A stretch of DNA of 44,694 nt from Dethiobacter alkaliphilus AHT 1 (GTDB lineage: Bacteria; Bacillota; Dethiobacteria; Dethiobacterales; Dethiobacteraceae): NCBI RefSeq assembly GCF_000174415.1, contig NZ_ACJM01000020.1:1-44694 (forward strand). The letters run 5' to 3'. The position numbers and the translations under genes were made by a program. The notes below the pieces were generated by a model. It was not told the origin of the DNA and did no database searches. It saw only the letters and a program-made list of their open reading frames with translations. Shown here one piece after another: positions 27,161-30,657 of this stretch (position 1 is its first letter; every line of letters starts with the position of its first letter).

Positions 27161-27790
27161 ATGGAACTATTCCAGTTTATTTTATCACGGCGTGAAATGA
27201 TTCAGGAGCTTGCCATAGAGCATTTTTATCTTGTCCTGTTAGCCGGTGCCATTTCCATTTTGATTGGTGTAATTCTGGGAGTGGCCATTACATATAATCG
27301 GGTTGCTGCCAGAATAGTTTTGGGAGTGTGCCAGGTACTGATGGTTATTCCCAGCTTTGCCATGCTGGGATTTTTACTTCCCTTCTTTGGGATCGGATTT
27401 CGCACCGGAGTCGTGGCGCTTATCTTATATTGCCTGCTTCCGGTAACCCAGAACACCTATATCGGCATTTTAGAAATACCTCCATCGGTATTAGAGTCAG
27501 CCAAAGGAATGGGTATGTCCCCTTTTGCTATTCTCTGGAAGGTCAAGATTCCGTTGGCATTACCCGTTATTATTGCCGGGTTTAGAACAGCCATGATTAT
27601 GATTGTGGGAATTGCCGCCATCGCCGCTTTTATCGGTGCCGGAGGTCTGGGCGAAATGATTTTTCAGGGGATCTCCCGCAGTCAGGCTAACCGCATTTTG
27701 ACCGGAGCAATTTTTATAGCCATTATTGCTCTTATGCTGGATGTTTTGATGAGCAGGCTCGAAGAGTATCTTATGGCACGGGTAAGGTAA
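27161..27790 (+). CDS. Osmoprotectant ABC transporter permease (OpuCB/OpuBB-like)
   Basis: A 209-residue membrane subunit with about five helices. It carries the EAA loop of ABC permeases (PSVLESAKGMGMSPFAILWKVKIPLALP) that contacts the ATPase. Together with the next three genes it forms a glycine betaine, choline or carnitine uptake system. The ATG at 27161 has AAAAGGAGGTG upstream; the GTG at 27131 lacks a ribosome site. No riboswitch or GbsR-type regulator was seen in the 230-base gap to the AsnB homologue. Confidence 0.88.
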   Translation: MELFQFILSRREMIQELAIEHFYLVLLAGAISILIGVILGVAITYNRVAARIVLGVCQVLMVIPSFAMLGFLLPFFGIGFRTGVVALILYCLLPVTQNTYIGILEIPPSVLESAKGMGMSPFAILWKVKIPLALPVIIAGFRTAMIMIVGIAAIAAFIGAGGLGEMIFQGISRSQANRILTGAIFIAIIALMLDVLMSRLEEYLMARVR

Positions 27791-27809
27791 TTCAGTGAGG
27801 TGATTGATT

Positions 27810-28928
27810 ATGATAAAGCTTGAAAGTGTAACAAAAATTTTTCCGGGCAGTAAAGTTCCGGCTGTAGACAATCTTAATCTGGGCGTGGCGGAAGGTGAAG
27901 TTTGTGTGATTGTAGGTCCCTCCGGCTGCGGAAAAACAACCACAATGAAAATGATTAACCGCCTTCACAATCCCACCAAAGGGAATATATTTGTTAACGG
28001 CAAGAATATAATGGAACTAAATCCCATAGAATTACGCCTAGGCATTGGTTATGTGATTCAGGAGATCGGACTCTTTCCCCATATGACCATTGAGGAAAAT
28101 ATTGCCACGGTTCCCAGAGAACTTAAATGGCCCCGAGATAAAACCAAAAAGAGAGTGGAAGAGCTAATGCGGCTGATGGGGTTGGATCCGGGGATATATG
28201 CCAAACGCAGGCCTTCTGCCTTAAGCGGCGGGCAAAGGCAACGGGTAGGGGTAGCCAGGGCCATGGCAGCGGACCCGCCGGTACTGCTTATGGACGAACC
28301 CTTTGGAGCTGTGGATCCCATCACCAGAGCCAGATTGCAAAACGAGTTTTTACGGCTCCAGCAAAAAATGAAAAAGACAATTGTATTTATCACACATGAT
28401 ATTGATGAAGCGATTAAGATGGGCGATAAAATTGCGGCTATGCGGGAAGGGAAGTTAATTCAGTTTGGTAATCCCGATGAATTGTTAAGCAGCCCTAAAG
28501 ACGAGTTTGTCAGCAAACTGGTAGGCCACAACAGATCAATTAAAAGACTCCATCTTCTTGAAGCAGAAACTGCGGTGCAGGAAAGTGTGCCGGTGGCCAG
28601 GATGACAGATAGTGTTGGGGAAATTGCCGGAAAGCTGGATACCACCATCATGGATTCGATTATTGTGGTAGACGAAGATTGTCAGCTTAAAGGCGCAATT
28701 TCAGCCAACGCCTTAACTAAAGATAAAAATGCTCTGGCCGGAGATCTGGTGCAAGAGCTTGCCAATACCGCCGGCATAGATGCCACATTAAACGATGTGC
28801 TCTCCATTATGTTGAACCTGGGCGAAGGATATGTGGCGGTGGTGGACGAGCAGGAACGTTTCCGGGGAATTATAACGCTCAATGATATATTAGAGGTGGT
28901 CAGAAGTGACACAAAACCGACTGAGTAA
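27810..28928 (+). CDS. Osmoprotectant ABC transporter ATPase with CBS domains (OpuCA/ProV-like)
   Basis: A 372-residue ATPase. Walker A is GPSGCGKTT, the signature is LSGGQRQRV, and Walker B is LLMDEPFGAVD, followed by the switch His in FITHD. Residues from about 255 hold a CBS-type regulatory pair (DTTIMDSIIVVD and VLSIMLNLGEGYVAVVD), as in OpuCA, where it senses ionic strength or c-di-AMP. The ATG at 27810 has GAGGTG 7 bases upstream. It overlaps the next permease gene by 23 bases. Confidence 0.92.
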   Translation: MIKLESVTKIFPGSKVPAVDNLNLGVAEGEVCVIVGPSGCGKTTTMKMINRLHNPTKGNIFVNGKNIMELNPIELRLGIGYVIQEIGLFPHMTIEENIATVPRELKWPRDKTKKRVEELMRLMGLDPGIYAKRRPSALSGGQRQRVGVARAMAADPPVLLMDEPFGAVDPITRARLQNEFLRLQQKMKKTIVFITHDIDEAIKMGDKIAAMREGKLIQFGNPDELLSSPKDEFVSKLVGHNRSIKRLHLLEAETAVQESVPVARMTDSVGEIAGKLDTTIMDSIIVVDEDCQLKGAISANALTKDKNALAGDLVQELANTAGIDATLNDVLSIMLNLGEGYVAVVDEQERFRGIITLNDILEVVRSDTKPTE

Positions 28929-29643
28929 AGTGTGGGTACATTTGCGGACTCCCTTGCTTCTCATCGCCCTGGGTGCAATATTAATTATTTATGTGGTTAA
29001 TAACCCGGGCGGGGCAATAGCTGCCAGAGCGCTGACGTACCCCAATGTCCTGCGTTATTTGCGGGAACATGTTGTTCTGGTGATTGCGGCTATGGTGCTG
29101 GCAGTACTTGTGGGTATACCTGTGGGGATTATGCTCACCCGGCCCAAGTTAAGAAGAATAGGGAAAGTAATTGAGACTTTTGTTAATATCGGCCAAACCG
29201 TTCCCAGCCTGGCTATTCTGGCACTGTTTTTTGTTTATCTGGGCCTGGGCTTTAATACTGCATTGTTTGCTTTGTGGTTGTACAGCATTTTGCCGATTTT
29301 ACGCAATACTTATGCCGGTATTACCAGCATAGAGCCGGAAATCCTGGAGGCTGCCCGCGGCATGGGTATGACGCCGTGGCGAACCCTCTATAAGATTGAA
29401 CTGCCATTGGCATTGCCGGTACTAATGGCCGGTGTCCGCACTTCTACTGTAATCTGCGTTGGAACAGCTACTCTTGCTACCTTTATTGGTGGTGGTGCAC
29501 TGGGTGACCTGATAAAAACCGGTATCCAGGTTAGAAGAGATATACTTGTTTTTACCGGAGCAGGTCTGAGTGCTTTGCTGGCTATCCTGCTTGATTACCT
29601 GGCGGGTCAGGCAGAGATTGCTATATTAAATAAAAGAAACTAG
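28906..29643 (+). CDS. Osmoprotectant ABC transporter permease (OpuCD/OpuBD-like)
   Basis: A 245-residue permease, paralogous to the gene at 27161. It has an N-terminal helix (about 13-31), then the same core with the EAA loop EPEILEAARGMGMTPWRTLYK. The two permeases probably pair as a heterodimer. The start is GTG at 28906, inside the end of the ATPase gene, with GAGGTGG upstream, so translation is probably coupled. Confidence 0.9.
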   Translation: MTQNRLSKVWVHLRTPLLLIALGAILIIYVVNNPGGAIAARALTYPNVLRYLREHVVLVIAAMVLAVLVGIPVGIMLTRPKLRRIGKVIETFVNIGQTVPSLAILALFFVYLGLGFNTALFALWLYSILPILRNTYAGITSIEPEILEAARGMGMTPWRTLYKIELPLALPVLMAGVRTSTVICVGTATLATFIGGGALGDLIKTGIQVRRDILVFTGAGLSALLAILLDYLAGQAEIAILNKRN

Positions 29644-29658
29644 GAGGGGATTTAAAGT

Positions 29659-30600
29659 ATGAAAGTTAAAGGAAGGTTTTTGATTTTTGCTGCTTTGTTT
29701 CTGCTAGTAGCTCTAACCGCTCTGGGGTGTGGTGATAATCAGGCAGAAGGCTGGGTCTTTGCTACAGACCATGAATATTCTGTGCGGCCTGATGGCTATC
29801 CTGGAGTCACAGATCTCTACGGATTTGAATTTGATGACGTGATTATTATGGATCAGGGCATAACATATCAGGCTCTGCGAGATGGCGATGTGGCGGTTGC
29901 CATGGGCTTTGCCACAGACGGCCGTATTGCCGCCTTTGATTTGGTCAATCTGGAAGATGATAAAGAATTCCATCCGGTCTACAATGTAGCGCCCAATGTG
30001 CTGACCGCAACCTTGGAAGAATACCCCGAGATAGAAGGGCTTTTAAACAGCGTGGTACCGCTTTTGGATGAAGAAACCATGTCCGAGTTAAACGCCAGGG
30101 TTGATATCGAAGGGTATGAACCGGATGAAGTGGCTTATGAGTTTCTCCTGGATAACGGTTTGATTAGTGAAACAGCCGCCGATGGCGACAAAGGACCTAT
30201 TTCCATCGGCTCCAAAGAGTTTACAGAGCAGTTGCTGTTAGGTCAGATGGCGGTTCTGCTGCTGGAGAATGACGGTTTTCAAGTAGAAGATAATACCGGT
30301 CTGGGTGGCACCTCCATAGTCAGGGAAGCACTGGAAAATGATGAAATCCAGATTTATTGGGAATACACCGGCACAGCTTGGATGACCCACTTCGGCAATG
30401 AAGAAGCGATCACCAATCCGGAAGAATGCTATGCACTGGTTAAAGAAGAAGATGCCAACAATGGTATTACCTGGTTGGATTATTCAGACTTCAATAACAC
30501 CTATACTTTTATGATGCGTCGGGCAGATGCTGACAGTCTGGGCATTACCACCATCAGTGATCTGGCTGAGGCTATTAACGAAGGAGTTCCTGCACCATAA
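29659..30600 (+). CDS. Osmoprotectant-binding lipoprotein, circularly permuted (OpuCC-like)
   Basis: The substrate-binding subunit, 313 residues, with a signal peptide ending at LGC (Cys24). In the usual OpuCC/OsmoF order the IGSKEFTEQ...LGGT...EYTGT...TISDL half comes first and the RPDGYPG...YGFEF...TDGRI...DDK...VD half second. Here the second half comes first (residues 30-168) and the first half last (about 180-309), joined by an acidic linker. All family motifs are present once, so it is a circular permutation, not a duplication. A binding site for a quaternary amine is expected to be formed from both halves. GGAGGGGATTTAA precedes the ATG. Confidence 0.9.
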   Translation: MKVKGRFLIFAALFLLVALTALGCGDNQAEGWVFATDHEYSVRPDGYPGVTDLYGFEFDDVIIMDQGITYQALRDGDVAVAMGFATDGRIAAFDLVNLEDDKEFHPVYNVAPNVLTATLEEYPEIEGLLNSVVPLLDEETMSELNARVDIEGYEPDEVAYEFLLDNGLISETAADGDKGPISIGSKEFTEQLLLGQMAVLLLENDGFQVEDNTGLGGTSIVREALENDEIQIYWEYTGTAWMTHFGNEEAITNPEECYALVKEEDANNGITWLDYSDFNNTYTFMMRRADADSLGITTISDLAEAINEGVPAP

Positions 30601-30625
30601 ATGACAAAACAAAATAGACACAAAC

Positions 30626-30652
30626 AAAGCCACGGAATTTTCCGTGGCTTTG
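30626..30652. terminator. Bidirectional terminator between the transporter and the DUF4321 gene
   Basis: AAGCCACGGA and TCCGTGGCTT form a 10-bp stem with an ATTT loop. T follows on the plus side and AAAC precedes, so it can stop both convergent genes. Confidence 0.75.
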
Positions 30653-30657
30653 TTGCA

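Follow-up and report, generated by a model that had tools for sequence, protein, structure and literature searches.

The window, a stretch of 44,694 nucleotides from Dethiobacter alkaliphilus AHT 1, contains an operon of four genes on the forward strand. The first gene (27161–27790) encodes an ABC permease with a BPD_transp_1 domain (PF00528, E 4e-27), and its position is kept in orthologous operons. An ABC ATPase of the ProV/OpuCA type, which carries a CBS domain, is encoded next (27804–28928; TIGR01186 proV, PF00005, PF00571). This protein scored 355 bits against TIGR01186 in an NCBIfam search, above the cut-off of 326.6. A second BPD_transp_1 permease (28906–29643; PF00528, E 4e-28) precedes the final gene, which encodes a binding protein. 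A ProV-type ATPase and two PF00528 permeases, together in a single operon, are the components of an OpuC/ProU-type importer. A sequence-only reading of this DNA had described these three genes as normal, and the profile matches bear this out.

The binding protein gene (29659–30600, forward strand) runs from an ATG at 29659 to a stop codon at 30598–30600 and encodes 313 amino acids. A ribosome-binding site (AGGAGGGG, 29642–29649) lies 9 bases 5' of the ATG. Downstream, the sequence reads as a terminator-like hairpin (ACAAAGCCACGGAA-TT-TTCCGTGGCTTTGT, 30624–30653). The reading frame is intact, as had been stated. Also in agreement with the earlier description, the gene begins with an in-frame lipoprotein signal peptide (29659–29730), with the lipobox TALGC and Cys24 as the lipid anchor. 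The lipobox matches the PROSITE-type pattern. Residues 2–22 form a helix in an AlphaFold model.

The sequence-only reading had proposed that the two lobes of the protein are encoded in swapped order. Pfam family PF04069 (OpuAC), which covers type II quaternary-amine-binding proteins, matched the protein with 185.9 bits, compared to a gathering cut-off of 21.2 (E 1.3e-54), but in two stretches. Residues 31–163 correspond to positions 114–255 of the 257 in this profile, and residues 180–309 match positions 4–135 of 283 in the NCBIfam OsmF profile. Hence, the second half of the family stands first. The OsmF equivalog model, NF049931, gave 167.3 bits, again in two stretches and under its curated cut-off of 400. 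All 27 PDB relatives were matched by sequence, nearly all as split stretches with the halves swapped. The PDB matches at E ≤0.01 all belong to the AfProX/OpuBC/OpuCC/OsmF/EgtUC group (best 4e-41), and these E-values rule out a chance match. We then rotated the protein by placing residues 30–176 after residues 177–313. Following rotation, the split matches became a single full-length stretch for each of single-domain AfProX, OpuBC, OpuCC, OsmF and EgtUC. The profile order, the split PDB matches and the rotation therefore confirm the swap. The canonical order of cluster F-III, in which the IGSK..FTEQ half comes first, is the opposite of that found here, so the swap is not simply the usual arrangement of the family.

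The borders of the lobes required adjustment, as the segment originally placed at residues 30–168 extends to about residue 170. This canonical second half, now first (residues 30–170; 29746–30168), contains R43, Y70 and F84 and was delimited by the PF04069 profile and pocket columns. The canonical first half, now last (residues 177–309; 30187–30585), contains K186, Y236, T239, N280 and Y282 and was delimited similarly with the OsmF profile. Comparison of junctions in permuted relatives identifies ETAADG (30169–30186) as a linker between the old C-terminus and the old N-terminus. The protein ends with the tail VPAP (30586–30597). In position and sequence, VPAP is similar to the first residues of VEAPEP, the linker between the lobes of canonical proteins, with which it may be homologous. 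The data support the identification of the gene product as an OpuCC/AfProX-type (cluster F-III) quaternary-amine-binding lipoprotein, circularly permuted at the inter-lobe hinge.

The cluster F-III pocket of EgtUC comprises K242, F293, T296, N339, Y341, R379, Y419 and Y443 (PMC9732360). In that order, these eight positions are occupied by K186, Y236, T239, N280, Y282, R43, Y70 and F84 of the window protein, as placed by motif position and alignment rather than from a ligand-bound structure. Two of these residues fall in an FNNTY motif that starts at residue 278. Hence, the predicted pocket has the aromatic cage, Asn base and Lys/Thr/Arg carboxylate site of cluster F-III, and overall sequence similarity is also to this cluster, not to OpuAC or E. 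coli ProX. The ligand is probably glycine-betaine- or choline-like. Five pocket residues lie in the canonical first half and three in the second. Consequently, the permuted chain must still bring both halves together for binding.

We used AlphaFold2, with 28 permuted sequences as input, to model the permuted protein. The model is confident (pLDDT 95.0, pTM 0.86) and two-lobed, with an OpuAC-like order. Its best whole-chain structural matches are B. subtilis OpuAC structures (Z 17.4–18.6 over 241–242 residues). Conversely, Foldseek aligned canonical F-III proteins over only about one half of the model. Among Foldseek's top 1000, VIA-align listed no full-length canonical F-III chain; this is not proof that none would match, because those 1000 alone were compared. 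The closest canonical orthologue, at locus L070, was modelled alike as a control (pLDDT 93.6) and matched AfProX, OpuBC, OpuCC and their kin over about 270 residues with Z of 30–36. The shared order and best full-length match could mean that the protein belongs to the B. subtilis OpuAC branch itself, where permutation is already known. We consider this very unlikely. Identity to OpuAC is just 14%, compared to 30–40% to AfProX/OpuBC/OpuCC over the half aligned by Foldseek. Furthermore, sequence matches were all to the latter group, and the cage residues are Tyr, Phe and Asn, as in cluster F-III, instead of the Trp residues that form the cage in OpuAC.

We searched for the same order in relatives. 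It was found in a paralogue within the D. alkaliphilus genome and in many independent assemblies, including that of the named species Syntrophomonas zehnderi OL-4 (L063). The one-contig genome of L179, a closed chromosome of 2,360,781 bases, has two permuted copies in neighbouring operons. Counting only matches unbroken through both halves, 23 of the 98 genomes from the class have a permuted copy, as do 8 of 398 genomes sampled across the phylum. After removal of duplicates, we compared 46 distinct permuted genes with 95 canonical genes. The permuted genes occupy the same permease–ATPase–permease–binding protein operon as their canonical orthologues, and all are cut at the same hinge. Both orders are present in some single genomes, such as that of L056 (permuted) and L168. 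In several others, the permuted gene is the sole relative found, which makes it probable that the permuted protein can stand in for the canonical one. The window protein is therefore no isolated case; the permuted form is widespread and probably arose more than once.

An error of assembly or binning might be suspected, since many of the relatives come from metagenome assemblies and the D. alkaliphilus genome is at draft stage. Such an artefact is scarcely conceivable as a general explanation, given that independent assemblies and a closed chromosome share the order. In addition, the signal peptide, stop codon and operon position all agree with the new order. The probable source strain, the soda-lake isolate D. 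alkaliphilus AHT1, was read by Sanger, 454 and Illumina sequencing, according to the available passages of its genome paper; these mention glycine betaine transporters and no permutation (PMC5609068). A decaying or non-functional rearranged gene is likewise highly improbable. Some permuted copies, in a side branch typified by L022, do lack transporter neighbours and have lost some pocket residues. However, the window gene retains its frame, signal, ribosome-binding site, operon and all pocket residues. It is also 70–80% identical to its closest permuted orthologues, and dN/dS between permuted copies is low. For the two copies at L179, dN/dS is about 0.08 in one lobe half and 0.23 in the other, which indicates purifying selection.

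The permuted proteins of the side branch without transporter genes are encoded within a conserved three-gene cassette. This cassette occurs elsewhere in the D. alkaliphilus genome (contig C7, L022 7354–10106) and at L030, L031, L034–L037, L039, L042, L043, L047, L068 and L161. Its products are a 249-aa membrane protein (62–67% identical), the binding protein, in which pocket residues are altered, and a PAP2 phosphatase (50–62% identical). The membrane protein had no match in Pfam, NCBIfam or the PDB; its RK..H and GDGxAE motifs are reminiscent of dolichol/phytol-kinase-like proteins. Another permuted clade (L032, L038, L040, L041, L046 and L163) still adjoins transporter genes. In some of these, among them L032, L038 and L040, Asp replaces the Phe/Tyr cage residue equivalent to F84, and the ligand of this clade may differ. 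Contig C23 of the D. alkaliphilus genome also encodes a canonical relative fused to a permease (L023 6543–8135, 531 aa), with an EgtU/OpuF-like architecture. Close relatives of this fusion (E 1e-81) are the binding proteins that serve as sensors for acetylcholine and nicotine. Long N-terminal fusions were seen in five canonical proteins and in 0 of the 46 permuted ones.

To build trees of the binding protein, we excised the lobe halves and set them in one common order. Permuted and canonical proteins were interleaved in the resulting 105-row tree, which has eight order changes, six of them forced by strong branches. The transporter genes are not permuted and provide a tree independent of the binding protein. 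This 79-row tree has seven order changes, all forced by strongly supported branches. For a 42-row set of close relatives, bootstrap transporter trees need four changes (5%–95% range 4–4). By the transporter genes, canonical L070 is the partner of the group formed by the window gene and two permuted sisters (support 100/98), and permuted L056 is sister to canonical L080 (100/100). Permuted L067, of an actinobacterial-type clade, and L069 and L081, from Planctomycetes, sit inside other well supported, mostly canonical clades. The permuted genes are not one clade and therefore lobe order has changed repeatedly. The trees support at least four changes among close relatives and a total of about seven, provided that lobes were not moved from gene to gene by recombination.

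That proviso matters because the main rival reading is a single ancient permutation. It would have spread by horizontal transfer and homologous recombination, after which each lobe half was overwritten through gene conversion by canonical copies, or some lineages reverted, making the trees misleading. We regard this as unlikely, though the least improbable of the alternatives. A single permuted clade was rejected by the three transporter genes (AU p 7e-53 in the 42-row set) and, independently, by the binding protein, whether both halves (2e-6), the first lobe half (1e-4) or the second (0.004) was used. A more limited grouping, which unites the window group and the large permuted clade, was not rejected in the single-lobe trees (p 0.17 and 0.08). 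These same two groups have an alike linker pattern around KG.I.V, which favours a common origin, as does the occurrence of both orders in some genomes. However, in the genome with both L056 and L168, the lobe halves of L056 have closer relatives than L168, the canonical copy. Several permuted genomes also lack a visible canonical copy that could act as a conversion donor. The placement of L067, L069 and L081 argues in the same direction.

The L056 locus illustrates the difficulty. It is syntenic with L080, the DNA being 75–86% identical over about 8 kb, and the two differ in lobe order. A clean permutation in place would be compatible with the dS of their lobe halves, 1.3–1.4, which is within the range of neighbouring genes (about 0.5–1.4). 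Despite this, the binding protein tree puts L056 with L057, not L080. Transporter genes do not group L056 with L057 (p 0.011 for holding them together), although both have the same junction, GDDPxxMGxGxPVVVGSKEF, a point in favour of one origin. Because the gene sets conflict, recombination or transfer of the binding protein gene is probable, and this would lower the number of independent permutations. The comparison of junction with transporter kinship suggests that the binding protein gene can move by itself. The C-terminal VPAP is common to the window group and L056/L057, which could mean a shared origin.

Independent, repeated changes of order remain the preferred reading, and the junctions hint at how these could occur. 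Nested canonical proteins have hinge linkers of 4–6 residues, mostly rich in Pro and Glu (VEAPEP and similar), while those of most outgroup canonical proteins shown are 0–2 residues long. VPAP looks like a remnant of a VEAPEP-type linker. The junctions suit a change from canonical to permuted by duplication and trimming, but the long linker could also be a scar of reversal. None of the loci retrieved contains an ORF in which three or four lobe halves are combined. The flanks of permuted genes held no clear remnants, with one fair match on the opposite strand (L065 6306–6031). Tandem canonical binding protein genes, an arrangement from which a permutation could arise, are present at L101/L174 and L079. 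At L179 (6136–13596) the whole operon stands twice side by side with both binding proteins permuted, a natural tandem duplication of the system.

Taken together, we think it probable that the gene encodes a lipid-anchored substrate-binding protein of an OpuC-type importer, permuted at the hinge, in which fold and cage were kept while the order changed repeatedly through likely duplication. The lobe halves are swapped at the hinge, with the old termini joined by a short linker and the new termini placed within the hinge crossing. Sequence and structure prediction show that the bilobed fold and a quaternary-amine cage, built from both halves, were retained. The protein would most likely close on its glycine-betaine- or choline-like ligand and pass this to an unchanged permease–ATPase complex. 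Binding protein and transporter trees point to repeated switches at the same hinge in orthologous copies of the operon. These switches would probably have come about through tandem duplication of the binding protein gene and subsequent loss of the outer halves, and the entire gene may occasionally be exchanged among related species. A bolder version, which we hold only tentatively, is that lobe order is an evolutionary toggle. The permuted order would have replaced the canonical one several times, and the reverse may have happened at least once, always at a fixed hinge and with no change to the transporter. Long VEAPEP-type linkers of the nested canonical clade could then be scars of reversal. 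Such a toggle would let both orders coexist in sister species, even in single genomes.

Most known cases of natural circular permutation involve distantly related proteins, and the age of the event prevents its reconstruction. Here, permuted and canonical orthologues share an operon in sister lineages. Their lobe halves are 84–89% alike in the closest pair, and about 70–80% alike between the window group and its canonical sister. Hence, the origin and reversibility of permutation, and its effects on folding, ligand binding and transporter docking, can be tested on closely related natural pairs. Annotation readily overlooks the permuted form, because profiles and structure searches that depend on order divide such proteins into pieces or score them too low.

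Among known systems, B. subtilis OpuCC and OpuBC, AfProX, E. coli OsmF (YehZ) and EgtUC are like the window protein in identity (30–40%), pocket residues and types of operon partner. They differ in having the opposite lobe order; in the window protein, the hinge linker is opened and the old termini are joined. Permutation in the OpuCC branch, and repeated order changes among orthologues, are not described in any paper found in the open-licence literature searched; the precedents found there are OpuAC/ProX and Treponema pallidum MglB-2. MglB-2 is an ABC binding protein with a lipid tether and a natural circular permutation, and it has retained ligand binding (PMC4990184), but it has a Type I sugar-binding fold and only part of one lobe has moved. 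Its authors suggest that permutation is advantageous for tethered proteins (PMC4990184). We rejected this explanation for the present family since lipoboxes are equally common in both orders (39/46 permuted and 76/89 canonical proteins, Fisher p = 1). The permutation that separates OpuAC from ProX, which the sequence-only reading had correctly named, is known from structures (CPSARST, PMC2395249). B. subtilis OpuAC, which binds glycine betaine (PDB 2B4L, 2B4M), has the permuted order and bilobed fold in common with the window protein (Z 18.6), but differs in sequence, has a Trp-type cage and belongs to another transporter branch. The OpuAC permutation is deep; in the window family, the order has instead changed repeatedly among orthologues.
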